Notes under the pieces: model-generated
Told to the model about the DNA's origin: nothing
The model's input: only the letters and a program-made list of their open reading frames with translations
The model's database searches: none
Source: Microbacteriaceae bacterium PS02070
GTDB lineage: Bacteria > Actinomycetota > Actinomycetes > Actinomycetales > Microbacteriaceae
Length of the DNA stretch: 64,000 bases
Direction: 5' to 3'
Assembly (NCBI GenBank): GCA_029959865.1
Contig: JASCPE010000002.1
Coordinates: 1 to 64,000 of the forward strand
In this document: positions 10,009-31,911 of the stretch, in pieces
How the letters are laid out: every line of letters begins with the position of its first letter
Numbering within the stretch: position 1 is the first letter of the stretch
Translations under genes and position numbers: made by a program

Positions 10009-10011
10009 CCG

Positions 10012-11130: not shown

Positions 11131-11195
11131 AGCTAATTCTCGGCGTGTCGCACGTCGAGAATCAGTTCGAGGTGGTATCGAGAGATAACTTCAGT

Positions 11196-11201: not shown

Positions 11202-11207
11202 GGGCTC

Positions 11208-13370
11208 ATGTTTCACAGCCCGAACACTCGTCGACGTGCGCACGAGCGCCCTCTCGCGCTGACCATCGCGGCCCTCCTCGTGGCCGCTCTCGCCGTGGTC
11301 ATGACGCCCCGCAGTGCCGATGCCGCGGCTCTGCCGCCGTCGATCACAGAGGGCGGATTCATCATCAGCGACGCCGAGTTCTTCGACTCGGATTCGATGA
11401 CGAGGACCCAGATCCAGAGCTTCCTTGAGGGCAAGGTCCCGACGTGCCGGGCTACGACGGGCCCGGACTGCCTCAAGGACTTCCGCTCAACGATGGTGGC
11501 CAAGAGCGCCGACAAGTACTGTGCTGCCATCCAGGGTGGCTCCAATGTGCGGGCGAGTGAGATCATCTGGCGCGTCAGTACGGCGTGCGGGATCAACCCC
11601 AAAGTCCTCTTGGTGATGCTCCAGAAGGAGCAAGGGCTGGTCACATCCAGTGCCCCATCCAACTGGAACATTCAGCAGGCGATGGGTCAGGCGTGCCCCG
11701 ACACCCCGACGGGCTGTGACCCCCGCTACTCGGGCTTCTTCAATCAGGTGTATTACGGAGCACGCCAGCTCCAGGTGTACACAAAGAACCCGAACTCCTT
11801 CAACTACCGCGCGGGCCAGGTGAACACCATCAAGTGGCACCCGAGCAGTTCGTGCGGCACATCGAAGGTCTACATCCAGAACCAGGCGACCGCGAACCTG
11901 TACATCTACACGCCGTACCGCGCGAACGTGGCTGCGCTCGCGGCCGGGTACGGGACCGGCGATAGCTGCTCGGCATACGGCAACCGGAACTTCTACAACT
12001 ACTACGTCGACTGGTTCTCACCTGGCTCGTCGGCATCCACGGGGGCGCCGGCTCAAGTCGCGGCGTGCACGACCCCCGCGTCGAACGACATCGCCTCCGG
12101 GTCCGGGACGGCGACGGTGAACACTGCGTCACTGAATGCGCGCACCGCCCCGACGATGAAGTGCGCTACAGGGATGACCTCTCTCTCCAAGGGAACGAGT
12201 CTCACTGTGACCGGTGCGTACGGCATGTGGACGCGCGGGACCACCGGTGGCAAGACCGTGTGGGTGGCGACGCAATACCTCACCAAGAAGGCCACGCCCG
12301 CACCGGGCGGCAGCGCCGACTCATGCGCCACTCCGAGTGGCATCACCGCGGCAAAGGGTGACGTCACGGTCACCTCGGCGACACTCAACGCGCGCAAGGC
12401 TCCTTCGACGGAGTGTGCGACGGGCCGAGTAAGCCTGAAGCTGGGGGACAAGGCCACTCGCACCGGCGTCTACGGAGCATGGTGGCGGGTCACGCTCGCC
12501 AGCGGCGGCACGTACTGGATCCACAGCGACTACGCGAGTGTGGCAAACGCCTCGACACCGACGCCCGCGCCGACCCCCACTCCGACCCCGACCGAGACGC
12601 TTCAGACCACCGCCTCGCTGAACTTGCGTAGCAAGGCATCGACCTCGAGTTCGATCATCGTGGTTCTGGCCAAGGGGACGAAGGTCCAGGTCATCGGCTC
12701 GGAGGGTGCCTGGCGCAAGGTCACGGTGGGCACTCGCACCGGCTGGGTGCACTCTGACTACTTGGCCAAGCCAGGGTCGAGCTCCGGGTCGGGAACGACG
12801 AGCACCGCCAAGACGACCGATTACCTGAATCTCCGCGAGGGTGCGTCGACGTCGTCGAAGGTCCTCGCGACCCTCGCCAAGGGAACGACCGTGACGATCA
12901 CCGAGTCCAGTGGCGCGTGGCGCAAGGTGAAGGCGGGCACCCGCACGGGCTGGGTGCACAGTCAGTATCTGACGAGCACGACCTCGGGAAGCACCACCGT
13001 CACCAAGACGACGACCGATTCGCTGAACCTCCGCCAGTCGGCGTCGACCTCAGCGAAGGTGATCACGGTCCTCGCCAAGGGCGCGAAGGTGACCGTCACG
13101 TCGACAAAGGGCGACTGGAGCGCCGTGAAGGTGGGTTCGCGTTCAGGGTGGGTGCACTCGTCCTACCTGACCTCCGCGAGCTCCTCGACGACGGTCACCA
13201 AGACGACCCGTACGCCGTTGAACCTGCGGCAGTCGGCGTCGACCAGTGCGAAGATCTTGACCGAGCTGGCGGTCGGCACAAAGGTCACGGTGACCTCGAC
13301 CAAGGGCACGTGGAGCGCTGTCAAGGTGGGGTCGCGCACGGGATGGGTGGCCTCCGCCTACCTCAAGTGA
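11208..13370 (+). CDS. secreted protein with lysozyme-like N-terminal domain and six SH3b repeats
   Basis: A 720-aa exported protein. Residues 1-43 are a signal peptide (Arg-rich start, hydrophobic core, ADAAA). Residues 45-285 form a domain starting GGFIISDAEFFDSDSMT; VLLVMLQKEQGLVT has a glutamate near residue 141 placed like the catalytic Glu of lysozyme-like muramidases. Six SH3b modules follow: two with Cys (near 307 and 392), a Pro/Thr linker (about 449-465), and four closely similar ones (near 470, 539, 604, 668) with LNLR and GWVHS/YL signatures. Likely wall-bound and possibly peptidoglycan-cleaving; activity is inferred. The leaderless motif and signal peptide set the start over an upstream GTG at 11145. 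Confidence 0.8.
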   Translation: MFHSPNTRRRAHERPLALTIAALLVAALAVVMTPRSADAAALPPSITEGGFIISDAEFFDSDSMTRTQIQSFLEGKVPTCRATTGPDCLKDFRSTMVAKSADKYCAAIQGGSNVRASEIIWRVSTACGINPKVLLVMLQKEQGLVTSSAPSNWNIQQAMGQACPDTPTGCDPRYSGFFNQVYYGARQLQVYTKNPNSFNYRAGQVNTIKWHPSSSCGTSKVYIQNQATANLYIYTPYRANVAALAAGYGTGDSCSAYGNRNFYNYYVDWFSPGSSASTGAPAQVAACTTPASNDIASGSGTATVNTASLNARTAPTMKCATGMTSLSKGTSLTVTGAYGMWTRGTTGGKTVWVATQYLTKKATPAPGGSADSCATPSGITAAKGDVTVTSATLNARKAPSTECATGRVSLKLGDKATRTGVYGAWWRVTLASGGTYWIHSDYASVANASTPTPAPTPTPTPTETLQTTASLNLRSKASTSSSIIVVLAKGTKVQVIGSEGAWRKVTVGTRTGWVHSDYLAKPGSSSGSGTTSTAKTTDYLNLREGASTSSKVLATLAKGTTVTITESSGAWRKVKAGTRTGWVHSQYLTSTTSGSTTVTKTTTDSLNLRQSASTSAKVITVLAKGAKVTVTSTKGDWSAVKVGSRSGWVHSSYLTSASSSTTVTKTTRTPLNLRQSASTSAKILTELAVGTKVTVTSTKGTWSAVKVGSRTGWVASAYLK
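12601..13365 (+). repeat. four tandem SH3b-coding repeats
   Basis: Four successive units of about 195-210 bp inside the SH3-repeat gene, each starting with codons for LNLR and ending with GWVHS or GWVAS plus YL. The last two are the most alike at the nucleotide level, which suggests recent duplication and makes copy-number change by recombination plausible. Confidence 0.75.
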
Positions 13371-13490
13371 TTCGCCTCGCGCAGGACCTCGAATGACCAC
13401 GGCCGTGCTCGGCGTTTGTGCAGGACTCTCCCGTTAGGATGATCGGTGGCCTCACCGGGGGTGGGGTACCCGAAACTTCATTGGATTTCT

Positions 13491-14363
13491 GTGACGACTA
13501 TCGACACCAGCGCGTTCGACGTTCCCGGGCGAAGCCGTGGCCTGCTCGACCTTTTCCGCTATCGGTATCTGTTGCGTCTTCTCATTGGGAAGAGCACATC
13601 CCTGCGGTACCGAAACTCGGTACTGGGGTGGTTCTGGTCGTACGTTCGTCCGACCGTTCAGTTCCTCGTCTACTACCTTGTGGTGGGTCAGATCCTTGGC
13701 ATCCACCGTCAGGTCGAGGCCTTCCCGCTGTATCTGTTCAGTGGGATCGTCGTGGTGAACCTCTTCAACGAAGCCTTTGGCGCTGCGACACGGTCGATCG
13801 TGGACAACAAGGCGCTGGTGCGCAAGATCTACCTGCCTCGTGAGTTGTTCCCCCTCGCGGCCATCATCGGGTCATTCATCCATTTCGTGCCTCAGCTGAT
13901 TGTGCTCGTCCTGGTCAGCCTTCTTTTCGGGTGGATCCCCTCCCTCAGCTCGCTCGGTCTGCTCCTTGCCGGGCTGGTGCTCGTGGTGCTCTTCATCTTC
14001 GGCATCGGCCTCTTCTGCTCGGCTGTGAATGTGCGCTATCGGGACGCGCAGAACTTCGTCGAGATCATCCGCCTGATTGCGACGTGGGCTTCGCCCATTC
14101 TCTACACCTGGGTGATGGTCGCCGACGTCACCGAGAACTTCCCATGGATCTTCCACCTCTACATGTCGAACCCCATCACCGTGGCGGTGGAGATGTTCCA
14201 CCAGGCGTTCTGGGGACACATGGTTGCTCCCGCAGACAACCACGGCTGGCCGCCCCATTTCGGGTGGTACGTGCTGGTCGCGTGGGTGCTCACCCTCGTC
14301 ACTCTCGTGGTGGGACAGTTGGTGTTCCGCCAATTCGAACGAACGTTTGCGCAGGACCTGTGA
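13491..14363 (+). CDS. ABC-2 type polysaccharide/teichoic acid export permease
   Basis: A 290-aa Wzm/TagG-type permease with six hydrophobic segments. The cytoplasmic N-terminus has YRYLLRLLIGKSTSLRYRNSVLGWFWSYVRP, the usual amphipathic stretch before the first helix. It is followed by its ATPase with a 1-bp TGATG overlap. Together they would flip a lipid-linked wall glycopolymer across the membrane. I chose the GTG at 13491, where family-like sequence begins; a GTG at 13446 is possible because TAGGAT sits 5 nt upstream of it (13435-13440), which could also act as the promoter for a 45-nt leader. Confidence 0.88.
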   Translation: MTTIDTSAFDVPGRSRGLLDLFRYRYLLRLLIGKSTSLRYRNSVLGWFWSYVRPTVQFLVYYLVVGQILGIHRQVEAFPLYLFSGIVVVNLFNEAFGAATRSIVDNKALVRKIYLPRELFPLAAIIGSFIHFVPQLIVLVLVSLLFGWIPSLSSLGLLLAGLVLVVLFIFGIGLFCSAVNVRYRDAQNFVEIIRLIATWASPILYTWVMVADVTENFPWIFHLYMSNPITVAVEMFHQAFWGHMVAPADNHGWPPHFGWYVLVAWVLTLVTLVVGQLVFRQFERTFAQDL

Positions 14364-15106
14364 TGACTACGGCCACCTCTGCCCCGCCTCGGATCGTCGT
14401 CGACCACGTTTCGAAGTGGTTCAACAAGCGCCACACACGGTCGCTGAAGGACGCACTGATTCACCTCGTTCGCCGTGAGCCGGTGCGTTCCGGCCAGTTC
14501 CAGGCGCTGGACGACGTCAGCTTCTCGATCGGAGAAGGCGAATCGGTTGCGGTCCTCGGCCTGAACGGATCGGGCAAGTCGACGACCCTGAAGCTCGTCT
14601 CCGGTGTCCTTCAGCCCGACGAGGGGCGTGTCCTGACTCGCGGGCGGGTGGCGGGCTTGATCGAAGTCGGCGCCGGTTTCCATCCGGACCTCACCGGGCG
14701 CGAGAACGTCTTTCTCAACGCGGCGATCCTCGGAATGAGCGAGAAGGAGACCAAGGAGCGTTTCGACGACATCGTCGCCTTCAGCGAGATCGGTGATTTC
14801 ATCGACCAAGAGGTGAAGCATTACTCCTCGGGAATGTTCATGCGTCTCGCGTTCAGCGTCGCGATCCACGTCGAGTTGGATGTTCTCCTGGTGGATGAAG
14901 TTCTCGGCGTCGGCGACGCGCCTTTCCGCGCGAAGTGCAATGCAAAGCTGCATGAGCTGTCCGAGAAGGGCGTGACGATGATGGTCGTCAGCCACTCAAA
15001 GGGGCAGGTCAAGACGTTGTGCTCCCGTGGCATCGTCATCCGCAAGGGCGTCGTCGTCTTCGACGGCCCCATTAACGATGCTCTCGCCGAACTCGAGAAG
15101 AAGTAG
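14363..15106 (+). CDS. ABC transporter ATPase for polysaccharide/teichoic acid export
   Basis: A 247-aa Wzt/TagH-type ATPase. It has Walker A GLNGSGKST, the exporter-type signature HYSSGMFMRLAFSVAI, and Walker B VLLVDEVLGVGD. There is no C-terminal carbohydrate-binding domain of the kind that recognises capped O-antigens, so chain-length control must lie elsewhere. Coupled to the permease. It ends just before a small GATCAG/CTGATC hairpin at 15116-15132 that separates it from the convergent rml operon. Confidence 0.92.
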   Translation: MTTATSAPPRIVVDHVSKWFNKRHTRSLKDALIHLVRREPVRSGQFQALDDVSFSIGEGESVAVLGLNGSGKSTTLKLVSGVLQPDEGRVLTRGRVAGLIEVGAGFHPDLTGRENVFLNAAILGMSEKETKERFDDIVAFSEIGDFIDQEVKHYSSGMFMRLAFSVAIHVELDVLLVDEVLGVGDAPFRAKCNAKLHELSEKGVTMMVVSHSKGQVKTLCSRGIVIRKGVVVFDGPINDALAELEKK

Positions 15107-15130: not shown

Positions 15131-16536
15131 TCAGGTGCGGAGGTACTCCTGCAGCGAGGCGCGCCAGTCCGGAGTCGAGTACCCTGCGTGCGCGAGCTTT
15201 CGCAGATCCAGGACGCTGTTCCTCGGGCGCGGAGCGATGGGCACCGAGGCTGATGCGAAGTACTCAGTGGTCGTCACGTCGCTGACGCGCGCGGGGTCGT
15301 GTCCGGTGAGTGTGAAGACTTCGCGAGCGGCGTCCGCCCACGACGATGGCTCTCCGGCACCGGTGAGGTTGTAGGTGCCGAACGGCGCCTTCGAATCGAG
15401 CAGATGCACGATTCCATCGGCGATGTCGGAGGTGAAGGTGAGGCGTCCGATCTGATCGGAGACGACCGCGGGATCGATGCCTCGATCGGCGAGGCTCGCC
15501 ATCGTCCGCACGAAGTTCTTGCCCTCGCCGATTACCCACGAGGTGCGCACGATGTAGTGCCGCGGGGTCGTCGCGGCTGCGAGGTCTCCCGCCGCCTTCG
15601 TCTGCCCGTAGACCCCGAGGGGCGAGAACGGGGCGTCCTCGCGGTACGGCTCGGACTGGCTCCCATCGAAGACGTAGTCGCTGGAGACGTGCACGAGTGT
15701 GATGCGATTCTGCGTGCACACCCGTGCGAGTGCCGCGACGGAGGTGGCGTTCGCTGACCAGGCCTCCGGCCGCCCCTCGGGAGTCTCAGCCGCGTCGACG
15801 GCTGTGTAGGCAGCCGCGTTGACGATCACGTCGTAGTCGCGCCACGTGCGAGCCTCGTCGAGGCCGCCTTCGATGTCGAGGTCATCGCGAGACGCGTACT
15901 CGATTCCCGAGCCATCTCCCAGGCGCGCGCGCAGTGCGCGACCGAGCTGCCCGCTCGCGCCAAGCACGAGGATCTTCTTCGCCGCAATGGGAGAGACATC
16001 CGCCAGGCGGGGGTGCGCACGGTCCTTCTCCGACAGCTCCACCTCTGCCAGGGGAATCGGCCAGTCGATCGCGGCCGTCTCATCGGCGAGGTTGAGGAAC
16101 GAGTAGCTCGCGTCGGGCGACCAATGATCGTTGACGAGGTAGGTGTAGGCGGTGTCCGGCTCTAGCGTCTGGTAGGAGTTGCCTACCCCGCGCGGGACGA
16201 AGATCGCGCGCGACGGATCCAGTTCGGTCGTGAAGACGGTGCCGAAGCCGGGGCCTTCGCGAAGATCCACCCATGCCCCGAAGATGCGTCCGGTTGCGAT
16301 GGAGACCCACTTGTCCCAGGGCTCGGCGTGGATTCCGCGAGTCGTGCCGACGGCATCGTTGAACGAGATGTTGTTCTGGATGGGACCGAAGTCAGGCAGG
16401 CCGAGCGCCAGCATCTTCTCGCGCTGCCAGTTCTCTTTGAACCAGCCACGGTTGTCGCCGTGAACCGGGAGGTCGTACACGACGAGCCCCTCGATGGGGG
16501 TTGCGGTGGCGCGGAGCTCTTTGCCGAACGTGGTCA

Positions 16537-16537
<1 letters not shown>
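15131..16537 (-). CDS. rmlCD: bifunctional dTDP-4-dehydrorhamnose 3,5-epimerase / reductase (RmlC-RmlD fusion)
   Basis: A 468-aa fusion. Residues 1-175 are a cupin epimerase with GDNRGWFKENW and RGIHAEPWDKWVS, the latter placing the catalytic histidine. Residues 190-468 are the NADPH reductase: Rossmann motif VLGASGQLGRALR, DYVFDGSQSEPY and the Y-x3-K pair in VYGQTKAAGDLA. Together they convert dTDP-4-keto-6-deoxyglucose to dTDP-L-rhamnose. The GTG overlaps the rmlB stop by 1 bp (TAGTG). An in-frame extension to 16666 lies wholly inside rmlB and is rejected. Such fusions occur in other Microbacteriaceae. Confidence 0.92.
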
Positions 16538-18404
<1,867 letters not shown>

Positions 18405-18472
18405 GATTGTCCATCCTCCCACACCGCGCTGCATATGCCGCGGGGCAACTCTCCGGCGGCGATCGTCGCGCG

Positions 18473-18484: not shown

Positions 18485-20347
18485 GTGATCAAGGTCAGTG
18501 TCATCGTGCCGACGTACCAACCCGGAGAGGGCCTGAACCGGCTTGTCGCGTCCCTGGACGCGCAGAGCCTGCCTCGTGACGAGTTCGAAGTCATCTTCGT
18601 CGACGACGGCTCTCCGGACGACACTGCCGAGCGGCTTCGTGAGATCGCATCTACGCGCCCGCACGTGCGGGTTGAGCAGATCCCGAACTCGGGGTGGCCC
18701 TCGCGTCCACGGAATGTGGGCATCGACCTCGCTCGGGGTGAGTATGTTCTCTTCCTCGATCACGACGACACGATCTACCCCGACGGTCTGCGTGCCGCCT
18801 ACAACTTCGCGGCGGCCAACGGCGCTGATGCGCTCAATGGCAAGGAAGTACGTACGCACATGGCCGGCTGGGGCGTGAGCAGTTTCACCGGCGACCTCCC
18901 CAACGTGCAAGGACGCGACGGAATGCCGCCTCTTCAGCCGATGACGCCGCACAAGCTGTACCGGCGGGAGTTCCTGGACACACACGGCATCCGCTTTCGG
19001 GAGGGTGGGAAGGTCTTCTGGGAAGACATCTTCTTCAACCTCAAAGTACAGCGACACGCATCTGTCATCTCGACGCTCTCCAGCGTCCCCGTGTACCACT
19101 GGCAAGCGACGGAGGGCAGTGGATCAACGGGGTTCCTTCGATCCTCACCTGACTTTTGGCGATGGCTCCGAGAGATCTTCGTTGCAACGAACGATGAACT
19201 GGGGGCACCGGAGCTTCGCGAGGCACGCGAGGGCATGCTGCTCCACCAGTATCGGGGGAGGCTCCTGGCGTCGTTCAACGGTGCGTTTGCCAAGCGGCCG
19301 GAATCGGAGCGCGCAATGATCTTCGCCGAGTGCCGTTCGATCCAGGCAGAGTTCATTCCAGAGGAGCTCGACGAACGGCTCAATTCGACGGATCGCATGC
19401 GCGCGCGTTTGCTGCGCGACGGCGATCTCAGTGGGCTCGTGCGCCTTCCGGCCGTGGACCCCGGCTTGCCGGGCGTCGCGTCGTTGATCGATGCCATGTG
19501 GGAGAACGGCGCGCTTCGCCTGAACGCGGAGGTGATCTGGCAGAGCAAGAGTGGGCGGCGGCATGACCTCGTCAGGAGCGAAGGTCGGATCTACAAGCGG
19601 ACCGCTGCTACGTCGGACATCGGCGGCTCCCGCCAGCTGGTGGATGTCACTGATGAGATCGAAGGGGCGAGTGCCGAGTACTCGGCGCGAGACCGCACGT
19701 CGCGCGCGTCCTGGAGTGTGCCTTCCCGAAGTGAGGTCGATGTATCCAGCGATGCCAAGCCGGAGTTCGTCGTCCGGGTGCAAGGAGACTTCGACCCTTC
19801 CGACGTGAGGGGCGGCGCTCCCGCTGAGAAGGGCGCCTACGACATCCACGTGCGCGCGATGCTCGCCGGGAGCGCGTCGCACCGTCGCCTTTCAAGCACG
19901 ATTCCGCCGCTCCTGACGACGGATGGCGTTCAGAGTGCTCTTGCGTACACGAACGCCGATGGCTTCCTCTCCGTGGACATCGATCAGGGAGTGCGCCGTC
20001 TGGGACACGCGCTCGAGCTGGACCTCGCGCTCGCGCAGACAGGCATCGAGGACGGCCGATTGTCCTTGTCCGTTCCGCTGCCCGGGACAGACGTGCGAGG
20101 CGACGGAGAGATCGAGACGACCGTGCGTGCTGCTCGTCCCGTTTCGCGTCCCGGGCTGATTGCGCGCCTGCGTGGGGCGAGAGCGCCGGAGGCAAAGATC
20201 TCAACCATTCCCGCCGCCATCGTGTGCGCAGACGGCGCGGCGACGCTCGTCGCCCGATTCCCCGAAGACTGGGTGGCGGCGGACCTCATCGTGGCGGGCC
20301 GGGAAGACGCGCCGCAGCGCATTACGGCAAAGGAGTCGCTCTCATGA
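18485..20347 (+). CDS. GT2-family glycosyltransferase, wall polymer type
   Basis: A 620-aa protein. Residues 1-250 are a GT-A domain: [26 protein letters not shown], the DxD-like [13 protein letters not shown] and the catalytic-base region FWEDIFFN. Residues 330-620 are beta-rich and hydrophilic with no transmembrane segments; long GT2 proteins with such tails are known for decorating teichoic acids (TarS/TarP class). It is coupled by ATGA overlap to a TagF-like enzyme, so it may build or glycosylate the same phosphodiester polymer. The sugar donor is unknown; dTDP-rhamnose made by the adjacent divergent operon is a candidate. Confidence 0.8.
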
Positions 20348-22089
20348 CGGACGAACTGGAGCACAGCGTTCCGCCGCGTACGAGGGTCGTGCGCGGCTGG
20401 TTCCGGCGCTTCCTCAAGCGGTCCACGAGCCACGAGACAATCGCCACCGCGGTGGCACTGGTCGGCATCGCCGTCCTTTGGCCGTGGCCGTGGGCGGTTG
20501 CGGCGCTGGGAGCCATCCTGATCGCGATTGGCGTCTATTGGGTGTCTCGAGAGTCCGCGCGCTCATATTGGACGGGTCGGTTCCTCGCCGTTCGTCTCGT
20601 ACTTGTGACCGCGGCCGTCATCGCGTTTGCGCAGGATCGCTTGCTCTGGGGAGTGGTAGGCACTCTGAGTGTCGGAGCGGGTGTCGTCACCGGTGGCATC
20701 ATTCGCAGTCGCATGATGCGTCTGTCTCGGCCGCCCGCGGTCAATGTCTCTTCAGTGCGTGGGTTCGACGACATGCTCGGGTGGAGCCGAGGAAGCCACG
20801 CGGCGGTCGGAGCGGCGGTCGTGGCAACGCTCGTTGGACAAGCGCTTCGCTCGGAGATTGTCGCCGTGGTTGCGGGAGCTGTCGCTCTCGCAGTGACAGC
20901 GGTCTTCGTTGCGCTTGCCATTCGAAACACGGCTGCGCGTCGCGGCGCGCTGCGCGAAGCACAGGCCGCCCTCGCGTCGTTGGAACCACAGTTTCTGCTC
21001 CACTGGGATGCCCCGTCCGAGGGAACGTATCAGGTGGCCATGTGGGTGCCCTATCTGAAACGTCTCGGCGTGCCGTTCGCGATCGTCGTCCGCACGTCGA
21101 ACCAGCTGCGGGCGCTCGACGGCCTGGTGGATGTGCCGGTCTTCTACAGGGTCACCGCGAAGGAGATTGAACGCACACTGGTGCCATCGGTTCACACGAT
21201 CTTCTATGTGAATACTGCGCTGCGCAACGCGCACTATCTTCGTTTCAATCACCTTCGGCACATCCAGCTCAACCACGGCGACAGCGACAAGCCCGCCAGT
21301 GCGAGCCGTCAGTTCCGGGCATACGACAAGAACTTCGTCGCCGGTCAGGCTGCCGTGGACCGCTTCGGTCTCTACGGAATCGACATGCCTGAGACGCTGG
21401 TGCGTATTGTCGGCCGTCCGCAGGTGGAGCCGATCGTCCCCGCAGCTCTGACCGCCGGGCCTGCGCAGACTGTCCTGTACGCGCCGACGTGGGGTGGGTA
21501 CTTCTCAGATTCGGATCTGAGCTCGCTGTCAAAGGGAGAGGCACTTGTGCAGTTCCTCCTTGACCGAGGGAACACCGTCATCTTCCGTCCCCACGCGTTC
21601 ACCGATCGCCACGCCCACCACGCGGAGATCGCCGACCGAATTCGGCAGAAGCTGGCTCAGGATGCACAGCGCACGGGCCGACGTCACCTCTGGGGGCCTG
21701 CGGCCGAGCAGGAACTCTCGGTGTTCGAGTGCTTCAACGTAAGTGACGCGATGATCTCCGATGTCTCCAGCATCGTCACCGACTACCTGTTCTCGGAGAA
21801 GCCCCTCGTCATGATGGCGGTCGGGATGGAACCGGACGAGTTCTCGCGAACCTACCCTGTGTCGCGTGCGGCGTACGTCATCCCCGCCGACTCCCATGAC
21901 TTCGAGTCGGTGCTCTCAGATGCGCTGGGAGCCGACTCACTGCGGCCGGTCCGGCGGAGTCTGCGCGACTACTATCTCGGTGACTTCCCCGCTGAAGGGT
22001 ACGCCGACGTTTTCGTCGCGGCGGCGCAGGAGGAACTCGATTTCGCCGCCCGAGGTCACCGTTTCGACGCCACCATCACCGAAGGCTAA
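20344..22089 (+). CDS. membrane-anchored CDP-glycerol/ribitol glycerophosphotransferase-type enzyme
   Basis: A 581-aa protein. Residues 35-200 contain about five or six hydrophobic segments, which is unusual for the family. Residues 215-580 form a GT-B TagB/TagF-like catalytic region: QLNHGDSDKPASASRQF, FVAGQAAVDRF, VLYAPTWGGYF, the histidine in FRPHAF and ISDVSSIVTDYLFSEKPLVM. The usual TDYSS loop reads SDVSS, with TDY seven residues later. The family transfers polyol-phosphate from a CDP-polyol to a lipid-linked acceptor. The ATG overlaps the GT2 stop (ATGA); in-frame sequence upstream to 20224 lies inside the GT2 gene. Priming versus chain extension cannot be decided. Confidence 0.82.
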   Translation: MTDELEHSVPPRTRVVRGWFRRFLKRSTSHETIATAVALVGIAVLWPWPWAVAALGAILIAIGVYWVSRESARSYWTGRFLAVRLVLVTAAVIAFAQDRLLWGVVGTLSVGAGVVTGGIIRSRMMRLSRPPAVNVSSVRGFDDMLGWSRGSHAAVGAAVVATLVGQALRSEIVAVVAGAVALAVTAVFVALAIRNTAARRGALREAQAALASLEPQFLLHWDAPSEGTYQVAMWVPYLKRLGVPFAIVVRTSNQLRALDGLVDVPVFYRVTAKEIERTLVPSVHTIFYVNTALRNAHYLRFNHLRHIQLNHGDSDKPASASRQFRAYDKNFVAGQAAVDRFGLYGIDMPETLVRIVGRPQVEPIVPAALTAGPAQTVLYAPTWGGYFSDSDLSSLSKGEALVQFLLDRGNTVIFRPHAFTDRHAHHAEIADRIRQKLAQDAQRTGRRHLWGPAAEQELSVFECFNVSDAMISDVSSIVTDYLFSEKPLVMMAVGMEPDEFSRTYPVSRAAYVIPADSHDFESVLSDALGADSLRPVRRSLRDYYLGDFPAEGYADVFVAAAQEELDFAARGHRFDATITEG

Positions 22090-22101: not shown

Positions 22102-23511
22102 TCACGCCTTCGCCTTGGCCATCTGCGCCACCTGGACGGTGACGATCTGGCCGGTGAGGTCCGACCCGACGACGTTCAGTGTCACCCGTGCGACGTCCTC
22201 CGGGTCGAGCAGCGTCTCCGGTGGCTCGTCGCCGAAGGCTCCCGTGCGCATCGGGGTCTTTGTGCGCTGCGGGTTCACGCAGTTGATACGGACGCCCGAT
22301 TCGCCCCACTCCTCGGCGAGCGCCTGCGTCAGGTTGACCACGCCCGCCTTGGTGGCCGAGTAGGTGCTGTAGCCGGCCCGCCCGCGAGTGTAGGAGCTGG
22401 AGGTGAAGAGGACCACCTGGCCCGCCGTCTTCTCCAGGTAGGGGAATGCCTCTCGCGCGACGATCGTGGGGGCGATGAGGTTGACCTGGATCGACTCCTT
22501 CAGGTCACGCTTCGGTGTGGCGACGAGAGGAGCGATGCGGAGGATTCCGGCGGTGACGATGACGGCGTCGATACGTCCCGTCTGCTCATGGACAGACGCA
22601 AGCGCACGCCGTACGGCTTTCGCGGATCGCACGTCGGTCCCCGTCGTGCTGCGGCTGAACTGGCGCACGTCCGCGCCAGCCGCCTGCGCCTGGTTGACGA
22701 TGCTCTCGCCGATCCCGTAACTGCCACCAAAGACGACAATGGTTTTGCCTGTGAGGTCGGGGACCTCTCGGATGTTCTCCCGGGACAGGGTCGCGGACTG
22801 CATCTGGAAGATCTTGTCTGCGATGTCCACGTCGATGGGCTCGGTGACCTTCATGTTCTCTGCCGTGCCATCTACGACGTAGATCGGCACGTCGGGGAGG
22901 TAAGCGAAAACCACGCCACAGTCGTCGGTGGCAGCGAAGTTCGGGTCGTTCGCGGCGATCTCGTATGCCTTGCGAATGGTCCCGAGACGGAAAGCCTGGG
23001 GTGTCTGTCCTCGGCGCAACCGCGCTCGGTGGGGGATGCCCGTGATGATCCGGTTCTCGTCCACCTCGATGATCGTGTCTGCCGAAGCGATCGCAGTATC
23101 GACAGCGTCGAACTCATCGAGGGCGTTGACGCAGTCGCTGATGATGCGATCGTCGATGAACGGACGCACCGCATCATGGAACAGCACCTTCGTGTCGTCG
23201 CCGGACAACGCCGCGATCGCGAGCTGCGTCGTGTCGTTGCGGGTCGCGCCTCCGGGAAGGATCCGGGTCAGCTTGGGGAACCGCTCCTTGTCCAGGAGGT
23301 GATCCAACTCGCCGATCGAGGCGGCGTTCATCATGATCAGGATCTCGTCGATGTGTTCGCTGGACTGCAGCGATTCCAGCGTGTGCTCGACGATCGCCTT
23401 GCCTGCGATCTTGATCAACTGCTTCGGGATACCGAGGCCCACACGGACGCCGATCCCTCCAGCCAGGACGACCGCGACGGTGCGGGGAGTGCGGGGTGGG
23501 TCTTGCGTCAT
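22102..23511 (-). CDS. bifunctional CDP-alditol synthase: cytidylyltransferase plus SDR reductase (Bcs1/TarIJ-like)
   Basis: A 469-aa fusion. Residues 1-235 are an IspD/TarI-type cytidylyltransferase with VVLAGGIGVRVGLGIPKQLIKIAGK and the HDAVRPFIDD loop. Residues 245-469 are a short-chain dehydrogenase: TIVVFGGSYGIGESI, a Ser in LFTSSSYT and YSTYSATKAG with the catalytic Tyr-x3-Lys. The same order is known in Haemophilus Bcs1/Acs1, which reduces ribulose-5-phosphate and makes CDP-ribitol. It would supply the CDP-polyol used by the TagF-type enzymes around it. CDP-ribitol is the best guess; other pentitols or glycerol are not excluded. GAGGAAAA about 12 nt upstream serves as ribosome-binding sequence. 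Confidence 0.88.
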   Translation of the reverse strand: MTQDPPRTPRTVAVVLAGGIGVRVGLGIPKQLIKIAGKAIVEHTLESLQSSEHIDEILIMMNAASIGELDHLLDKERFPKLTRILPGGATRNDTTQLAIAALSGDDTKVLFHDAVRPFIDDRIISDCVNALDEFDAVDTAIASADTIIEVDENRIITGIPHRARLRRGQTPQAFRLGTIRKAYEIAANDPNFAATDDCGVVFAYLPDVPIYVVDGTAENMKVTEPIDVDIADKIFQMQSATLSRENIREVPDLTGKTIVVFGGSYGIGESIVNQAQAAGADVRQFSRSTTGTDVRSAKAVRRALASVHEQTGRIDAVIVTAGILRIAPLVATPKRDLKESIQVNLIAPTIVAREAFPYLEKTAGQVVLFTSSSYTRGRAGYSTYSATKAGVVNLTQALAEEWGESGVRINCVNPQRTKTPMRTGAFGDEPPETLLDPEDVARVTLNVVGSDLTGQIVTVQVAQMAKAKA

Positions 23512-25526: not shown

Positions 25527-28355
25527 TTAGCGATTGCCTCCGGCCCGGATGTCCTGGATCGCTTCGAAGGTTCTGGCGCAGCTCTGCCCATCGCGAGGTG
25601 GGAAAAACTCTTGAGCCCGGCGAAGATACTCGTGCCAACGATCGCTCTTGCCCTCAAGTAGCTCAATGGTGGCAGTAACCGCTTCATCAACCTCAAGAGT
25701 CACGGGTCCGAATCCGTCGTCGTAGTAGTCGAAGTAGCCCTCTCTGTGCGGGTGGCGCGCAAAGAAATCGTCGCGGTCAAACTGGAAGTAGACCACCAGT
25801 CTCGAAAGATACGCAGCCTCAAAGGCCAACGACGAGTAATCAGTGACCAGAACTACAGCGCTGGCCAGGATTTCCTGAACATCCGACTCCGCGTACGTGA
25901 GGACCTTTAGCTCAGGAGGCAGATTCATATCATCGATATGACCTTCAAGATTCGGATGCGGAACAAACACAATATCGAGGCCGTGCTTCGTGGCGTACTC
26001 GGCGAGTCTCGGTGAAGTGAGGAACGCGAGCCAGTTCCGTAGGTAGTCGGAATCCTCGAAATCCTCGAGCAGACTTCGGCTGTTGCCCCTGCCGGTGACG
26101 TTTCCCATGAGGTACTCGCGCCAAGTCGGCATCACAACGATCCGGGGCGGCAGAGCCCGAGCATCCTTCGTCTTCTCCACGAGCGCGTCATGCCGCGGGA
26201 AGCCCGTCAACTTCGCTTCACGGCCGGTCAACACGTATGGAGTACCGTCGTCAACGAACGCGTGTAGTTCGCGTTGCGCTGCGGTCGCTATCAAGGAGAT
26301 CGGCTTCCCGTTCAGCCAGCGCGAAATGTCGTCCTTGGTGACTCCGTGCTGTAGGAAGGTATAGCTCCACCGTGGTCTGCCGAGCAGCTGCTCGTCGAGG
26401 GGGTGGACGACGTAGTGATCGACGTGGGACGATACGAGATGGTCCGCGAGCAAGAGCAGGATTGTGTGCTCAATCGAGCCGAAATCGACGAGCTTGAATC
26501 CCTCGGATTTCAGTCTTTGCCAGTCTGGGCTAGTCCGGCGTAGAACGAACCATGCGTTGATTGTCGGCTGATTCCTACTAATCCACCGGAAGAGGTGCTC
26601 AGCATTATCCTGAGCTTGGGTGTCCCTGTCCATTAGTACCCAGGCATGCGCAAATCTGCTTCGCCAGTAGCTGGTCTTCGCGAGCCTCTTGATCAGCTTC
26701 GCACGTGGGACTCGAACAGCCTTGGACCGGCCGTTAAGAACGCGCTCAGCTTGGGCCTTGCGCTTAGCGAACTCACGCAGAAGTCGATTTCGTGCTCGCT
26801 GCAGCGCGCGGGGACGCCGATGTCCACCTCCACGAGCGACGCGAGATGCTCCTCGAGAGGGCCCGGGTCCATCGGCTTCTGGCGCTAGTGATGGTGGACT
26901 TTGGTGGTTAGCCGCGGCCGGGTCGACTGGTGCGTCGGCACCAGCGGGTGCATCGGCCTCCGAAGGTGCGGATAAGAGGCGAGCTGGCGGTTTACGCAGC
27001 GTGTGGCGGTATTGTCGCCGGATGTCCGCAGCTGTCACGCTCCAGTGCGGGGCATCCGGTTGGCCGAACTTGATACTGACCAGCCGACCGTTGAGACGTA
27101 GGCTGAGCCCATCGGCGGCTCGAATCCACAGTATTCTCTCGTACATTACGGTCTCGCCGAAGTAGATCACGGCGCGATCTTTCGCGTACTCGGGCAAAAC
27201 TTCGCGCCCAAGCGCATCAAAACGCTCCAGAGGGCGTTCGCCCGTGAAGTAGTACTTGAACTGCAACAGCTGACGACGCTTGTCCATCCGCCAGATGTGT
27301 ACCTCCGCAGGCGTGTCGAGCCCGTTCGTCGCCAACGCGACGAGCGCCATCCGAGTCTGGAAAGCGATCGACGTTATCTGGTAGGTCATGATCTGCGTGG
27401 GCGCGATGTAGGAGAGCACCTCGCGCGCGATTGCCATGAAGATGGGCCGGTCTTCAGCAGGTATCGCTCGCGTGGGACTGTGTATCTGCTGGTCATAGCG
27501 GAAGTACCAGCTCATGTCATAGAGAATGATGTGCTGCAACCACGGGGGGGTGGCACGCGGATCCGCCACCGTCTCGCGGAGCGTCTCTAGCCAGCCGAAG
27601 CGTGGAAGGTCGACGTACTTCTCTCGCTTGTCCCAACTCGAGGCGACAAGCGAGCTTCCGTCCAGTCGTTGCCGGTAGAGGTACCGAGCTCGAGCGGCCA
27701 CGCGCAGTGCCGGCGCTGAGCTGAGCGAGTGATACCGTGCGACGAATGCGCCATCTTCGAAATTCGGCCTAACACGTGAGTCGAACCGCACGTTTGCCGC
27801 ATTGATCACATCGGTACGGAAAAAGGTTGTGGCCGCCTGGAGTTTCACGGCCTGGGGATCTTCGTCGAGCCGGATCGTCCGACTTCCTCGCGAGAAGACC
27901 TTGCGCAGGGGATGCGCGTTACGAGCGACACCCGTCTCGTCGTCAAGCATGATTATGTTTGCGGCGATAGCACCAACATTGTCGGTGTTCGCGACCGGCA
28001 CTTGTTCAAGGATCGCTTTTAAGTACCCCGGCTCCAAAATATCGTCAGGGTCGGGAAAACTGACCCAGTAGCCTTTGGCGCAACTCAGCCCAGTGTTCCG
28101 TGCGGCGCTTAATCCCCGATTCTCGGTCCGAATGAGCCGCGCGTTAACTGATATGCGCGTGAGCCAAGCCTCGACCAGCGACGCGGAAGCGTCGGGCGAC
28201 CCGTCGTCGATGAAGACAATCTCGATCTGATCATCGAGAATCTCTGGTTGTTGCTCAAGGCTCGCAAGAAAGTCGCCGACGTACGCTTCCACTCCATACA
28301 TCGATACGACGAGCGAGATGCAAGGCCGAGTTGCGGTGTGATCAGCGCCGTTCAT
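25527..28355 (-). CDS. bifunctional GT2 glycosyltransferase / TagF-type polyol-phosphate transferase
   Basis: A 942-aa fusion. Residues 1-300 are a GT2 domain: ISLVVSMYGVEAYVGDF, IVFIDDGSPD and the DxD-like SFPDPDDILEPGY. Residues 300-470 are a linker shared with the GT2 at 32040. After a Pro/Ala/Arg-rich stretch (about 475-530), residues 560-942 form the phosphotransferase: FLQHGVTKDDISRWLNG, VMPTWREYLMGN, VFVPHPN and VLVTDYSSLAFEAAYLSR. It could alternate sugar and polyol-phosphate addition to build a mixed-backbone polymer. AAGGAG lies 5 nt before the ATG at 28355, which is preferred over a start at 28418. Base composition is lower in GC than the flanks. Confidence 0.87.
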   Translation of the reverse strand: MNGADHTATRPCISLVVSMYGVEAYVGDFLASLEQQPEILDDQIEIVFIDDGSPDASASLVEAWLTRISVNARLIRTENRGLSAARNTGLSCAKGYWVSFPDPDDILEPGYLKAILEQVPVANTDNVGAIAANIIMLDDETGVARNAHPLRKVFSRGSRTIRLDEDPQAVKLQAATTFFRTDVINAANVRFDSRVRPNFEDGAFVARYHSLSSAPALRVAARARYLYRQRLDGSSLVASSWDKREKYVDLPRFGWLETLRETVADPRATPPWLQHIILYDMSWYFRYDQQIHSPTRAIPAEDRPIFMAIAREVLSYIAPTQIMTYQITSIAFQTRMALVALATNGLDTPAEVHIWRMDKRRQLLQFKYYFTGERPLERFDALGREVLPEYAKDRAVIYFGETVMYERILWIRAADGLSLRLNGRLVSIKFGQPDAPHWSVTAADIRRQYRHTLRKPPARLLSAPSEADAPAGADAPVDPAAANHQSPPSLAPEADGPGPSRGASRVARGGGHRRPRALQRARNRLLREFAKRKAQAERVLNGRSKAVRVPRAKLIKRLAKTSYWRSRFAHAWVLMDRDTQAQDNAEHLFRWISRNQPTINAWFVLRRTSPDWQRLKSEGFKLVDFGSIEHTILLLLADHLVSSHVDHYVVHPLDEQLLGRPRWSYTFLQHGVTKDDISRWLNGKPISLIATAAQRELHAFVDDGTPYVLTGREAKLTGFPRHDALVEKTKDARALPPRIVVMPTWREYLMGNVTGRGNSRSLLEDFEDSDYLRNWLAFLTSPRLAEYATKHGLDIVFVPHPNLEGHIDDMNLPPELKVLTYAESDVQEILASAVVLVTDYSSLAFEAAYLSRLVVYFQFDRDDFFARHPHREGYFDYYDDGFGPVTLEVDEAVTATIELLEGKSDRWHEYLRRAQEFFPPRDGQSCARTFEAIQDIRAGGNR

Positions 28356-28460
28356 TGGACTCCTTCGGGTGTTCAGCGCAGGGTGCGGGGGCGCACTTGT
28401 GGGTTCGCCTGGTATCAAATGCCGGCTCGCGCGCCCGTTGGCGCTCGCCCTGCGCTTGGC

Positions 28461-29483
28461 TCAGGGCGCCTCGTAGGCATCGATGGTGCCATCTTTCAGC
28501 GCTTGTCGGATGACTTCGATTTGATCCCAGTCGGGGAGAACGACAGATTGGCCGGCGATCGTTCCGGTTCCTAGCGTTGGCATGGTGAAGAAATCGATGT
28601 CTCCGGAACGAACGTCCCTGAGCGACCACGCGAGACCAGCCAAGTAGCCCGCGTCCATGCCTTGGTCGACCTGCACGTAGGGTGTCAGCGAACCGACGAG
28701 TTCGTTGATCCGGACCGGGTTGGTCAAGGTATCCGCGCTGAGAACCTCGCCGATGAGGCTCTTGAGAAAGAGCTGCTGATTGGTGGCTCGTTCGTAATCC
28801 CCTGTCGCGAACGCCTTGCGCTCCCGGACGAAAGCCAGCGCGTCGGACCCTTCGAGTGTGATCTCTCCCTCTGCGAAGGTCTCTCCTGAGACCGCGGTGA
28901 AAGCCCGCGGGTTGTTGACGGTCACACCCCCGAGCGCAGATGTGATGCCTTCGAATCCTTCGAAGTCGATGATCGCGACATGATCGATGGGGATATCGAT
29001 GATGCTCTCCACGGTTTCCACGATGAGCGGAACCCCTCCCCATGCCATCGCGGCATTGATCTTTGCCTCGCCGTGTCCAGGAATCTCCACCCAGTTGTCC
29101 CGCATGATCGACATCACGCTGACCGTGCTCTGATCCGCCGGCACGTAAGCGACCATGATCGTATCGGCAAGTCCAGCGTTGTCATCAAGTCCTGATCGCG
29201 TGTCCGAACCCAAGAGGAGGATGGTCTGGGCGCCCTCGACTGCGGCCGGGCGCTCCCCAGTCGGGAATACCTCGTCAATTCGTTCCGCGCTGTTGAATGT
29301 GCTGGCGAGGTTCCAGAGGTACAGACCAACGGCGATCAGAATGACGAGCAGGAGCGTCAGCACGATGAAGAACGCACGCCGGACCCAGTCGGTCTTCTTC
29401 TTGCGCGAGGTCTGAGACTCCGCTGGGACGTCGAGCACGGCGGTCGGGCTAGGGTGCTCCGGCGATGATGACGTGGGGGACAT
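28461..29483 (-). CDS. LCP family protein (second copy)
   Basis: A 340-aa LytR-CpsA-Psr protein in classic form: a short cytoplasmic tail with RKKKTDWVRR, one transmembrane helix (about 37-58), and the LCP domain from TILLLGSDTRSGLDDNAGLADTIMVAYV through SIMRDNWVEIPG, DHVAIIDFEGFEGITSALGGVTV and the arginine-rich FVRERKAFATGDYERATNQQLFL. It would attach the polymer made here to peptidoglycan. It sits between two TagF-type genes transcribed the same way, 105 bp ahead of the GT2-TagF fusion. CACACT plus 6 nt before the ATG is a possible leaderless promoter. Confidence 0.92.
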   Translation of the reverse strand: MSPTSSSPEHPSPTAVLDVPAESQTSRKKKTDWVRRAFFIVLTLLLVILIAVGLYLWNLASTFNSAERIDEVFPTGERPAAVEGAQTILLLGSDTRSGLDDNAGLADTIMVAYVPADQSTVSVMSIMRDNWVEIPGHGEAKINAAMAWGGVPLIVETVESIIDIPIDHVAIIDFEGFEGITSALGGVTVNNPRAFTAVSGETFAEGEITLEGSDALAFVRERKAFATGDYERATNQQLFLKSLIGEVLSADTLTNPVRINELVGSLTPYVQVDQGMDAGYLAGLAWSLRDVRSGDIDFFTMPTLGTGTIAGQSVVLPDWDQIEVIRQALKDGTIDAYEAP

Positions 29484-29532: not shown

Positions 29533-31911
29533 CTAAGTCGCGGCCTCGATCACCAGACGCGCAAGCGCGTCGGTGCACACGGCCGTGCCCGGCTGAGGCT
29601 CCAGGTTTCCAGGGACCTCGACCCACCGACGGGCGAACGCTCGCGCTTCCCCAGCCGTTGCCGGTGCCGTCTCGAGTCTGTCAATCAAATCAGCGATCGA
29701 CATGACGAGGGGGCCGGGAAGATCGGTGCGGTAGTCGAGATAGAAATCACGTGCCGCGAGGTAGGTGGTCACGTCCGGGCTGAGAAAGTACGAAGGGACG
29801 CCGACAATGGCGGCTTCGAACATCACTGATGAGTAGTCCGTGATGAAGATATCGGCCACTGTGAGAAGGTCCTGCGTTCCGAATCCAGGAGCATCGTCCA
29901 CCCCCTCGAACTCCGCATGCATCAGCGGGTGCAGTTTAACGACGAGGTGGATCCCGTTCGCCTTCAACGCATCGTGGAGCGCCCGCACATCCACGCCGAT
30001 CTCTCCATCGAGCCGGAAGGTGGGCGCAAAGAGCGCCACTCGCTGGCCGCTGAGGTGTGGGTGAGCAGCGAGAACGCGGGTCCTTTGTGCCTCTCGCCGC
30101 GCGGGGTCGCGGAGTCGATCAACGCGGGGCAGCGGAAGAACGCGGATGCGAGATTCTGGCGTGCCAAATGCCTCCGCGTAGGCTGCCACTGCGGGGCGCC
30201 CGCTCGCGAGCACGATGTCGTATCCCTCATGCATTCGCATCGCATCCGCGAGTCTTTCATCGCGCCCTTCGGGCTTTCCCAGGATGCTGCGTCCGAATTT
30301 CTTGAAGGCACCGAGCGCATGCCACATCTGGATAATCGTGAGTTCTGGGCGGTGGGAGAGAACGCTTGCAACGATCGAGTACGTGTCCAGGAGCAACACT
30401 CGGGCGGTGGCGACGTGGTAGAGCTGGCGGAGCATGTGCAGGGAGTATCGCGCCTTGCCGAGGACGCCCGGGGGGACCATGCGCACGAGACTCACGACCG
30501 TCAGCGAAGGGTCGATGCGATGAATCGCTTCGCGAAGATCGGCGAAGTCTTCGGGCTCGGCTGGGTGCTCTCGGCTGAGCATGACGATTTTGCGCCGCAC
30601 CGGCAGTAGTTTGAGAGGGGCGTACACCGCGGTCAAACTCTTTCGAGCGACCCATGCGATCACGAGGCGAAGGGAAAGCGGACCGTCTGCCCGGGTCGGT
30701 TCCGGGCCGGAGGCCGGGGCGACAGCTGCTCGCTCGACCGACGCGGTTATTCGCGGCCGCAGCAACACCTCCCGTGCGATGCGCTCGCTGGAGTCCCCAT
30801 CGCACGCACTCATAAACATGTCGATGAAGCTGTCGAGCGCGGGGGTCGTACGTGCGTTGCGGATCGTTTCTGCGAGCTCCGCTCCGTCGTGGATTACCGG
30901 CCCGCACAAGTACTCGGAGAACGGGTGATAGAACGAGCGACTGGAAGTGTACTCCTCAAGGTCTGGGCAGTAGAAGACAATCGGCCGCCGCAGGAGCGCG
31001 TACTCGAAGATCGCCGACGAGTAGTCGGTCACGAGGACATCCGCGGCCATGAGAAGGTCCGTCATCTCGCGCTCGGCGCTCACGTCTATGAGTCCTGTTA
31101 CGTGTGGGCGTGCGCTCAGGAGGGGTGTGACAAAGGGATGCATCTTGACCATGAGTACCCAGTCATCACCGAGGTCTTGCACGACACGTTGCCACGGCAC
31201 GCTATCGAAATCGAACGTTGCCGACCGCTGGCCATTTCCGCGGAACGTCGGCGCAAACAGCACGATTTTTCGCTCAGCGGGAATGCCGTACTCACGTCGA
31301 ATCCGCTCCGAGGCGCGCTGCACTCCTTCCGGGTTGAAGAACGCGTCCGTGCGTGGCACCCCGAGCGCGTGCACCCGGCTCATATCAATCCGGAACGCTT
31401 CGGCATAGTCAGCCCGCACGGCTTCGCTGCTGACAGTCGCATCCGTATAGTTGCGGTGCGCGGCTGACCCGGGGAGGGGCCCACCGGGCAGGCCCGCTCG
31501 ACTCCAGCCGACGCGCTTGAATGCTCCCGCTGCGTGCCACACCTGGACGAGCCTGGCCTCCGGGCGGATCTTGAAGGAGTAGATCAATGGATAGAAGTCA
31601 TCCACCACGATCGTCTGAGCTGTCGCAATGAGCCACGGGAGGCGAACAATGTCTCGGAGAGGACGCGAACTGCTGAGGCTCGGCTTGAACACCCCGACAA
31701 CATCGGCGTTCGGATCCTGGCGAAGGATCGCGTCGTGGAGAAACTCAAAGTTCCCGGAATAGTCATCGCGCGAGTCCGAAAGGAACAGCACCCGCCCGGG
31801 ACGGACCCGTGCGGCGCGTGCGAATGCGATGTAGGGAACTATGTAGAACGCGAACCGGATGCGATGCAGAATGGCGGAGCCCCGCAGCTTACTTCGAAGC
31901 AAACCCCACAT
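29533..31911 (-). CDS. tandem double-domain CDP-polyol phosphotransferase (two TagF-type domains)
   Basis: A 792-aa protein made of two complete TagB/TagF-like catalytic domains. Domain 1 (about 35-380) has LVQVWHAAGAFKRVGW, IVLFAPTFRGNG, VKMHPF and VLVTDYSSAIFEYALLRRP. Domain 2 (about 430-790) has IIQMWHALGAFKKFGR, VALFAPTFRLDGE, VKLHPL and IFITDYSSVMFEAAIVGVP. Both keep the His and Asp/Ser loops expected for transfer from a CDP-polyol, so both look active. Single-domain family members are usual; a duplicate could place a primase and a polymerase, or two polyol specificities, on one chain. The TGAGGTTTC before the ATG acts as ribosome-binding site. It is followed by the second LCP gene after 49 bp. 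Confidence 0.88.
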   Translation of the reverse strand: MWGLLRSKLRGSAILHRIRFAFYIVPYIAFARAARVRPGRVLFLSDSRDDYSGNFEFLHDAILRQDPNADVVGVFKPSLSSSRPLRDIVRLPWLIATAQTIVVDDFYPLIYSFKIRPEARLVQVWHAAGAFKRVGWSRAGLPGGPLPGSAAHRNYTDATVSSEAVRADYAEAFRIDMSRVHALGVPRTDAFFNPEGVQRASERIRREYGIPAERKIVLFAPTFRGNGQRSATFDFDSVPWQRVVQDLGDDWVLMVKMHPFVTPLLSARPHVTGLIDVSAEREMTDLLMAADVLVTDYSSAIFEYALLRRPIVFYCPDLEEYTSSRSFYHPFSEYLCGPVIHDGAELAETIRNARTTPALDSFIDMFMSACDGDSSERIAREVLLRPRITASVERAAVAPASGPEPTRADGPLSLRLVIAWVARKSLTAVYAPLKLLPVRRKIVMLSREHPAEPEDFADLREAIHRIDPSLTVVSLVRMVPPGVLGKARYSLHMLRQLYHVATARVLLLDTYSIVASVLSHRPELTIIQMWHALGAFKKFGRSILGKPEGRDERLADAMRMHEGYDIVLASGRPAVAAYAEAFGTPESRIRVLPLPRVDRLRDPARREAQRTRVLAAHPHLSGQRVALFAPTFRLDGEIGVDVRALHDALKANGIHLVVKLHPLMHAEFEGVDDAPGFGTQDLLTVADIFITDYSSVMFEAAIVGVPSYFLSPDVTTYLAARDFYLDYRTDLPGPLVMSIADLIDRLETAPATAGEARAFARRWVEVPGNLEPQPGTAVCTDALARLVIEAAT

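Follow-up and report, generated by a model that had tools for sequence, protein, structure and literature searches.

The gene and its two domains

The window analyzed here, i.e., the whole stretch of 64,000 nucleotides from contig JASCPE010000002.1 (positions 1 to 64,000, forward strand) of Microbacteriaceae bacterium PS02070 (assembly GCA_029959865.1; 2.7 Mb in 56 contigs), contains a gene for a predicted CDP-polyol phosphotransferase in which two domains of the same family are joined in one polypeptide. A preliminary description of the sequence had proposed two complete TagF-type domains in a single protein at this position, giving no strand; the open reading frame (ORF) lies on the minus strand and codes for 792 amino acids. 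Its parts are as follows (pLDDT, predicted local distance difference test score of the structural model).

29533..31911, minus strand: gene for the two-domain CDP-polyol phosphotransferase, 792 amino acids, ATG at 31911, stop at 29533
30748..31911, minus strand: half 1 (residues 1-388), TarL-type domain with N-terminal helices
31534..31536, minus strand: H126, first catalytic-type histidine of half 1, aligned to H444 of TagF, invariant (34/34 orthologs, see below)
31138..31140, minus strand: H258 (KMHPF), second catalytic-type histidine of half 1, aligned to H584 of TagF, invariant (34/34)
30685..30747, minus strand: linker (residues 389-409), pLDDT <50, sequence differing among orthologs
29536..30684, minus strand: half 2 (residues 410-792), second PF04464 domain, belonging to a separate clade
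30319..30321, minus strand: H531, first catalytic-type histidine of half 2, invariant (34/34)
29929..29931, minus strand: H661 (KLHPL), second catalytic-type histidine of half 2, invariant (34/34)

PF04464 (Glyphos_transf, the TagF-like family) is the sole Pfam family in the protein and matches two stretches (E = 1.5e-119; 399.7 bits in total against a cut-off of 22.1), which were placed at 30763-31821 and 29617-30603 with 251.7 and 152.2 bits, respectively, in the genome search, each above the Pfam cut-off. The proposal of one polypeptide with two complete domains is thus borne out, as is that of a full set of motifs in either half: the acceptor motifs QVWHAAGAFK (residues 123-132) and QMWHALGAFK (528-537), APTFR (220-224 and 629-633), HP (258-259 and 661-662), and TDYSS (295-299 and 691-695). 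Each half contains the two histidines characteristic of the family, which correspond to H444 and H584 of TagF and are described as important for TagF, Cps7D, and Bcs3 in passages of the respective studies (PMC5974469; PMC10299916). The designation "TagF-type" holds for the family, but not for the motif, which in both halves is of the WHxxGA type found in TarL and TarB and not of the WHGTP type of TarF/TagF. The two halves align with each other at 30% identity over 329 columns (BLASTP, E = 5e-37), and their likeness is therefore not due to chance.

Fused and split versions of the pair

A search of 366 Microbacterium genomes for the pair (E <= 1e-60) returned 35 carriers, each of which holds both halves. 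These comprise 26 genomes with one intact frame, seven with two adjacent frames, one with a fused-type gene containing a frame change (G188; genomes and loci are given by our working numbers G and L), and one with a broken frame (G132, from an assembly that is 68% complete), which was excluded from the trees and motif counts. The one-frame orthologs in 25 further Microbacterium genomes show 52-68% identity to the protein of the window. Note that the searches at the levels of genus, family, and order scored the best two to four candidates per genome, making misses possible, and that family and order were sampled, not covered exhaustively. In G188 (locus L095), the frame change lies within the linker and may be real or represent a sequencing error; because of this position, and because its halves fall among the fused rows, the gene is regarded as fused-type, and it was counted as a two-ORF row in the trees and motif counts.

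In the split pairs, the gene for half 1 is located upstream of that for half 2, and in all seven cases from Microbacterium an ATG or GTG in the frame of half 2 is placed such that it would overlap the stop of half 1 by 4 nucleotides, several of these pairs also offering later possible starts. In the order sample, matches at E <= 1e-50 were obtained from 26 of 396 genomes; six of these, from two other families, contain both halves as adjacent separate genes in the same order, again with a start (ATG, GTG, and once TTG) at a 4-nucleotide overlap in 6/6 pairs, and in G964 half 1 lies close to a contig end. Because these six genomes of two other families carry adjacent separate genes, the split pair is likely the older state, and the fused gene would have descended from two adjacent genes with overlapping ends. 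A single fusion without a later split was rejected: since a tree uniting all fused rows is rejected (p = 0.001), the sequences point to at least two fusions, or to one fusion and a later split. An exchange of half 1 between lineages (G118, G170, G171, and G311), which had been hinted at by the first trees, was dropped, as the constrained trees are not rejected (p = 0.78 and 0.062).

The motif counts are based on 34 orthologs, consisting of the 26 intact fused and 8 two-ORF versions. The first histidine, the glycine three positions after it (H+3), APT, the second histidine, and DYSS are invariant in each half (34/34), and the T of TDYSS is retained in 33/34 sequences of half 1 and 34/34 of half 2. 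Mean pairwise identity among the orthologs amounts to 0.61 (half 1) and 0.59 (half 2), with 93 of 395 and 73 of 397 columns invariant, respectively. Together with the alignment between the halves, the invariant motifs rule out chance or decay. Neither half looks relaxed as judged from these values, in agreement with the earlier view that neither is decayed; the loss of a catalytic histidine from one half, which had been named as an argument against that view, is not seen in the alignment.

Among ten named loci with a relative, nine belong to Microbacterium and one is labelled Frigoribacterium. The carrier strains include M. mangrovi and M. fluvii, and a two-gene version is found in Microbacterium esteraromaticum (L044). 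A genome of another genus of the family (G425) encodes a half-1-like domain (55% identity) followed in frame by a domain of glycosyltransferase family 2 (GT2; L098, 277-2967, minus strand). In G664, a genome of 1.4 Mb, a half-2-like gene is followed via an ATGA overlap by another PF04464-like gene (L099, 1300-3911). Stand-alone half-2-like genes (L045-L047) have altered motifs, two of them (L045 and L047) lying near ATP-grasp genes, and were not used for the assignment of function.

Ancestry of the two halves

A maximum-likelihood tree was calculated from 48 domains, including 40 chosen from recovered frames; it was built without TagB, TagF, TarK, and TarL of B. subtilis, without the first domain of G051 and the GT2 fusion of the window (both short), and without four first domains of other two-domain proteins. 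In this tree, half 1 forms one clade (10 rows, support 100/100) and half 2 another one (10 rows, 100/97), while the TarF/TagF type with the WHGTP motif branches apart from both (100/99). Half 1 groups with the TarL references, a Listeria lmo1085-like domain, and relatives from Streptomyces and Leuconostoc (92/87); the two TarB references form a clade of their own (98/97), and half 2 constitutes, together with three stand-alone relatives, a deep branch beside the TarL group. The alignment and tree of the two halves that had been suggested as a check thus place them in different clades instead of a single one, which rules out a recent internal duplication and agrees with the assertion that the halves are not a recent copy of each other. 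Because they are both intact and anciently diverged, the halves probably perform different jobs, as had been proposed.

All profile scores of the NCBIfam models remain below the curated cut-offs. Half 1 reaches 313 bits for TarL, 124 bits for TarF, and 97 (96.8) bits for TarB; the values for half 2 are 113 bits (TarL), 96 (95.5) bits (TarB), and 62 bits (TarF). The whole protein scores 421.9 bits with the TarL equivalog model NF041713 (562 residues, cut-off 1000 bits), of which half 1 covers positions 210-560 and half 2 positions 261-528, and the TarL reference of S. epidermidis scores 1043.6 bits. Likewise, both halves fall short of the 500 bits set for TarB (NF041711), S. aureus TarB giving 547.6 bits. 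The protein does not qualify as TarF/TagF, having glycine instead of proline at H+3 in both halves and missing the TarF cut-off of 550 bits, nor as a capsule polymerase combining a TagF-like with a GT-A or GT-B domain, as Pfam recognizes PF04464 only.

Both predicted domains find their best structural matches in TarL and TagF. The full-length model (pLDDT 83.0; predicted template modelling score, pTM, 0.51) appears usable for the individual folds. The model of residues 1-385 superimposes on TarL of S. aureus (8va1) with a Z score of 40.0 (root mean square deviation 3.3, 378 residues aligned) and on TagF with a Z score of 31.9; half 2 folded alone (pLDDT 85.7, pTM 0.84) yields Z scores of 36.4 for the same TarL structure (root mean square deviation 3.6, 367 residues aligned) and 28.2 for TagF. 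Because of these matches, both halves are predicted to share the TagF/TarL fold and to be nearer to TarL, which was solved with CDP-ribitol, than to TagF.

Donor supply and linkage genes

A candidate gene for the supply of the activated polyol is located in the same window:

22102..23511, minus strand: fusion of IspD/TarI with a short-chain dehydrogenase/reductase (TarI-TarJ type), predicted CDP-ribitol supply, best solved relative TarI (6xhp)

The product, which we take to resemble Bcs1 of H. influenzae, has the ribitol-5-phosphate cytidylyltransferase 6xhp as its best solved relative. It scores 162.8 bits for the ribitol-5-phosphate cytidylyltransferase family of NCBIfam (cut-off 166) and 162.9 bits for IspD (cut-off 181.3), both values lying under the cut-offs. 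By its distribution it is not likely a housekeeping IspD, because 329 of the 366 Microbacterium genomes contain no match at E 1e-60; the 37 genomes with the fusion include all 35 carriers of the pair. Pair and synthase share a contig in 35/35 carriers (with a partial synthase match in G338) at a median distance of 1.8 kb and a maximum of 18.6 kb, 12 of the 35 being no more than 500 bp and 32 no more than 10 kb apart; Fisher's test gives p = 7e-47 for the association, a statistic that ignores relatedness. Beyond the family, all seven genomes that contain the pair, or half 1 close to the end of a contig, also have the synthase (once in two pieces), as do four of 16 other genomes tested (once as a partial match).

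TagA/TarA (PF03808), which marks the canonical pathway of wall teichoic acid (WTA), was found in 0/13 genomes, which included 10 carriers (7/14 controls were positive), and the TagD cut-off was reached in 0/13 genomes and 0/35 carriers. Weak TagD-like hits, some of them short and always far under the cut-off, occur in 25/35 carriers, leaving 10/35 without any. Within the genus, the pair therefore accompanies the CDP-ribitol synthase rather than the known linkage genes. Since the TagD-like ORF in the genome of the window reads like a glycerol-3-phosphate cytidylyltransferase, CDP-glycerol may be present in the cell as well.

Proposed function and alternatives

We propose, with a probability of about one half, that the gene codes for a two-headed ribitol-phosphate teichoic acid synthase, whose half 2 starts the chain with CDP-ribitol and whose half 1 extends it. 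Half 2 would add the first ribitol phosphate, taken from CDP-ribitol, to a lipid-linked starter sugar other than the TagA product and hand the started chain over to half 1 within one protein, and half 1 would elongate it with ribitol phosphate from CDP-ribitol. The parts of this proposal differ in strength. Half 1 is very probably a ribitol-phosphate polymerase, and we are equally confident in predicting half 2 to be an active transferase; its use of CDP-ribitol appears reasonably probable, and for its role in starting the chain the odds are about even. The gene has two intact domains of separate ancestry, exists in split versions, and both strictly co-occurs and is linked with the predicted synthase in the genus; catalysis by either half, the choice of substrate by half 2, its primer role, and the hand-off are what we infer. 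The primer role is suggested by the separate branch of half 2, its constant pairing with half 1, and the missing linkage genes, and for this reason the division into primase and polymerase, one of two options in the preliminary description, fits best as a whole, its primase part being the conditional one.

Several points weigh against this proposal. TarL of S. aureus is reported, in an excerpt of PMC10332168, to prime and polymerise alike, and the TarL reference carries a single PF04464-type domain, so that priming does not call for a second domain; this is the main reason for caution about half 2 as the starter. The position of half 2 beside the TarL group is poorly supported (91/72, with long branches), its scores are nearly tied between the TarL (113 bits) and TarB (96 bits) models, and the full-length model, at a pTM of 0.51, is not reliable as to how its halves are arranged. 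The half-1-like domain of G425 has a GT2 partner instead of half 2. Two Microbacterium genomes (G120 and G332) contain the synthase together with only weaker relatives of the pair, and outside the family the synthase is found about 50-60 kb from the pair (G845, G923, and G1058) or on another contig (G854, G932, G954, and G964). According to a passage of PMC10299916, enzymes for glycerol phosphate have proline at H+3 and those for ribitol phosphate glycine, the residue carried by both halves; yet glycine is also present at H+3 of TarB from S. aureus and Listeria, a glycerol-phosphate primase. This marker therefore backs half 1 only and was dropped as a donor test for half 2, whose donor it does not fix. 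Finally, the proposal rests on computation.

The best surviving alternative, which we still consider unlikely, assigns to half 2 a TarB-like priming step, with glycerol phosphate taken from CDP-glycerol, and to half 1 the extension of the chain with ribitol phosphate, i.e., two polyol specificities acting on one chain. The TarB-like stretch WHALGAxKKFG retained in half 2, its 96 bits with the TarB model, and the TagD-like ORF of the window's genome, with some hit of this kind in 25/35 carriers, are consistent with this. Such hits are, however, missing from 10/35 carriers and nowhere above the curated cut-off, TagA as the maker of the TarB acceptor is found in none of the 13 genomes (10 carriers), and the TarB references form their own clade (98/97) apart from half 2. 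Two polyol specificities, the second option of the preliminary description, are thus disfavoured, with the CDP-ribitol synthase present in 35/35 genomes versus a sub-cut-off TagD-like hit in 25/35.

It seems quite improbable that the halves alternate in elongation, forming two kinds of phosphodiester linkages, or that they act on sugar-bearing units to give a repeating or branched ribitol polymer. The locus indeed harbors several GT2 enzymes and a GT2-Glyphos_transf fusion, a GT2 domain is joined to a half-1-like domain in G425, and capsule polymerases with TagF-like domains alternate activities in one chain, as stated in parts of PMC5974469 and PMC10299916; however, Pfam recognizes no glycosyltransferase family within the 792 residues, and the literature matches listed include no structure of the polymer from a carrier strain. 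That half 2 has no catalytic activity and acts as a module for binding the membrane or the acceptor, like the non-catalytic TPR and SH3b partners of TagF-like polymerases mentioned in excerpts of PMC11666461 and PMC10299916, is very improbable, as it keeps all motifs including the histidines (34/34), is conserved to a degree (0.59) close to that of half 1 (0.61), and the first domains of other two-domain PF04464 proteins do not look degenerate either, showing a QHG..GTK motif.

Returning to a start by half 2 and extension by half 1 with ribitol phosphate, a wider idea would be that the synthesis of ribitol teichoic acid in some Actinobacteria bypasses the TagA-TarB-TarF linkage steps, with half 2, as a member of a new clade, starting directly on a different lipid-linked sugar and the fusion enabling an intramolecular handover. 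We put this forward tentatively and with more doubt than belief; if true, the handover within one molecule could set the number or length of the chains. Teichoic acid chains are started and extended in separate steps, and the natural fused and split versions make their coupling, donor choice, and chain length directly testable, each half having its own residue to knock out. In addition, the pair plus synthase may serve as a genomic marker by which to predict ribitol teichoic acid in Microbacterium and its relatives, where the Bacillota linkage gene TagA was not found (0/13 genomes).

Surrounding genes

Further genes around the two-domain gene are listed below.

28461..29483, minus strand: LytR-CpsA-Psr (LCP) glycopolymer ligase, next downstream; Pfam PF03816 (4e-40), best NCBIfam match TagU, under cut-off
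25527..28418, minus strand: fusion of GT2 and a divergent Glyphos_transf domain, third gene of the same-strand run
18485..20347, plus strand: GT2 glycosyltransferase with a TarS linker domain
15131..18434, minus strand: RmlC-RmlD fusion, RmlB, and RmlA, dTDP-rhamnose supply
13446..15106, plus strand: ABC exporter permease and TagH-type ATPase; NCBIfam matches under cut-offs, ORF ends mechanical

The two-domain gene is separated by 49 bases from that of the LCP ligase, which is followed after 42 bases by the GT2-Glyphos_transf fusion on the same strand; on its other side, a GT2 gene lies in divergent orientation at 32034. Relatives of the fusion at 25527-28418 that have both parts recur at the related loci L040-L042 and L044. 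The dTDP-rhamnose epimerase RmlC and reductase RmlD share one frame (15131-16666, minus strand). Beside the exporter genes, a 741-residue protein with four SH3_3 stretches (11145-13370, plus strand) is possibly a wall-binding protein, and a 621-residue ORF at 20224-22089 (plus strand), which shows a weak PF04464 match at residues 415-534 and no NCBIfam match, reads as a remote or degenerate relative of that family. On contig 44 of G000, a second set of three PF04464 matches is located at 5753-11119 (L001, L003, and L007), and the two that were examined are of the WHG[TI]P type with proline at H+3. The query was matched somewhere in 30/34 other genomes of the same genus, the motifs viewed in three of them (G002, G023, and G031) being of the WHG[TI]P type, and the set on contig 44 may represent a core set of the genus.

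Comparison with known systems

The closest known counterpart is TarL/TarK, as represented by the S. aureus structure 8va1. Half 1 shares 36-38% identity with it over the catalytic part as well as the WHxxGAFK motif and the fold (Z 40.0), half 2 has the same fold (Z 36.4), and genes for CDP-ribitol are located near the two-domain gene. In contrast, TarL combines a single catalytic domain with an N-terminal part of its own, about 200 residues long, whereas the protein described here contains two catalytic domains and lacks such a part. With TarB/TagB, half 2 has in common a motif of the WHxxGAxK..FG type and similar scores for TarB and TarL, but it belongs to a separate clade, reaches 96 of 500 bits, and is not accompanied by TagA.

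The WTA locus of Listeria likewise combines rhamnose genes, TarI, TarJ, and several polyol transferases, among them three PF04464 genes (TarL-like, lmo1085-like, and TarB-like), whose lmo names we presumed from their positions. In that record, the best match of half 1 is the TarL-like gene and that of half 2 the lmo1085-like one; unlike here, these are separate genes, and in the tree the lmo1085-like domain is found with TarL and half 1, not with half 2. A Listeria record labelled plasmid 6 (L048, NZ_LR134403) contains an entire WTA locus and looks like a mislabelled piece of chromosome.

The capsule polymerases Bcs3, Cps3D, and Cps7D also contain a TagF-like domain inside a larger single polypeptide, but the partners named in the parts of the reports considered here are GT-A, GT-B, phosphatase, ribose transferase, TPR, and SH3b domains and not a second TagF-like domain (PMC5974469; PMC10299916; PMC11666461). 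Two PF04464 stretches in one frame are present in five other proteins, four from Actinobacteria (G038, G056, G043, and G051) and one encoded on a plasmid of S. epidermidis (1062 amino acids). Their first stretch has the histidine motif QHG[VI][ML]GTK where the protein of the window has WHxxGAxK, and tandem PF04464 proteins are thus less unusual than they may seem; they differ from the enzyme of the window in combining this QHG..GTK stretch with a second one of the WHGTP type as in TarF/TagF, and three of the five, read in part, contain TarS_C1. Proteins of this tandem kind, some with TarS_C1, are located at L050 (7880-11068), L013, L014, L015, and L017, and both of their domains may be active. 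No description of a two-domain enzyme of the kind reported here was found among the matches listed from the open-access literature (titles and beginnings of abstracts). What sets the enzyme of the window apart is that a TarL-type domain is combined with one from an uncharacterised clade, that the two are both of the WHxxGA type, and that they accompany a predicted CDP-ribitol synthase and exist in fused and split forms.

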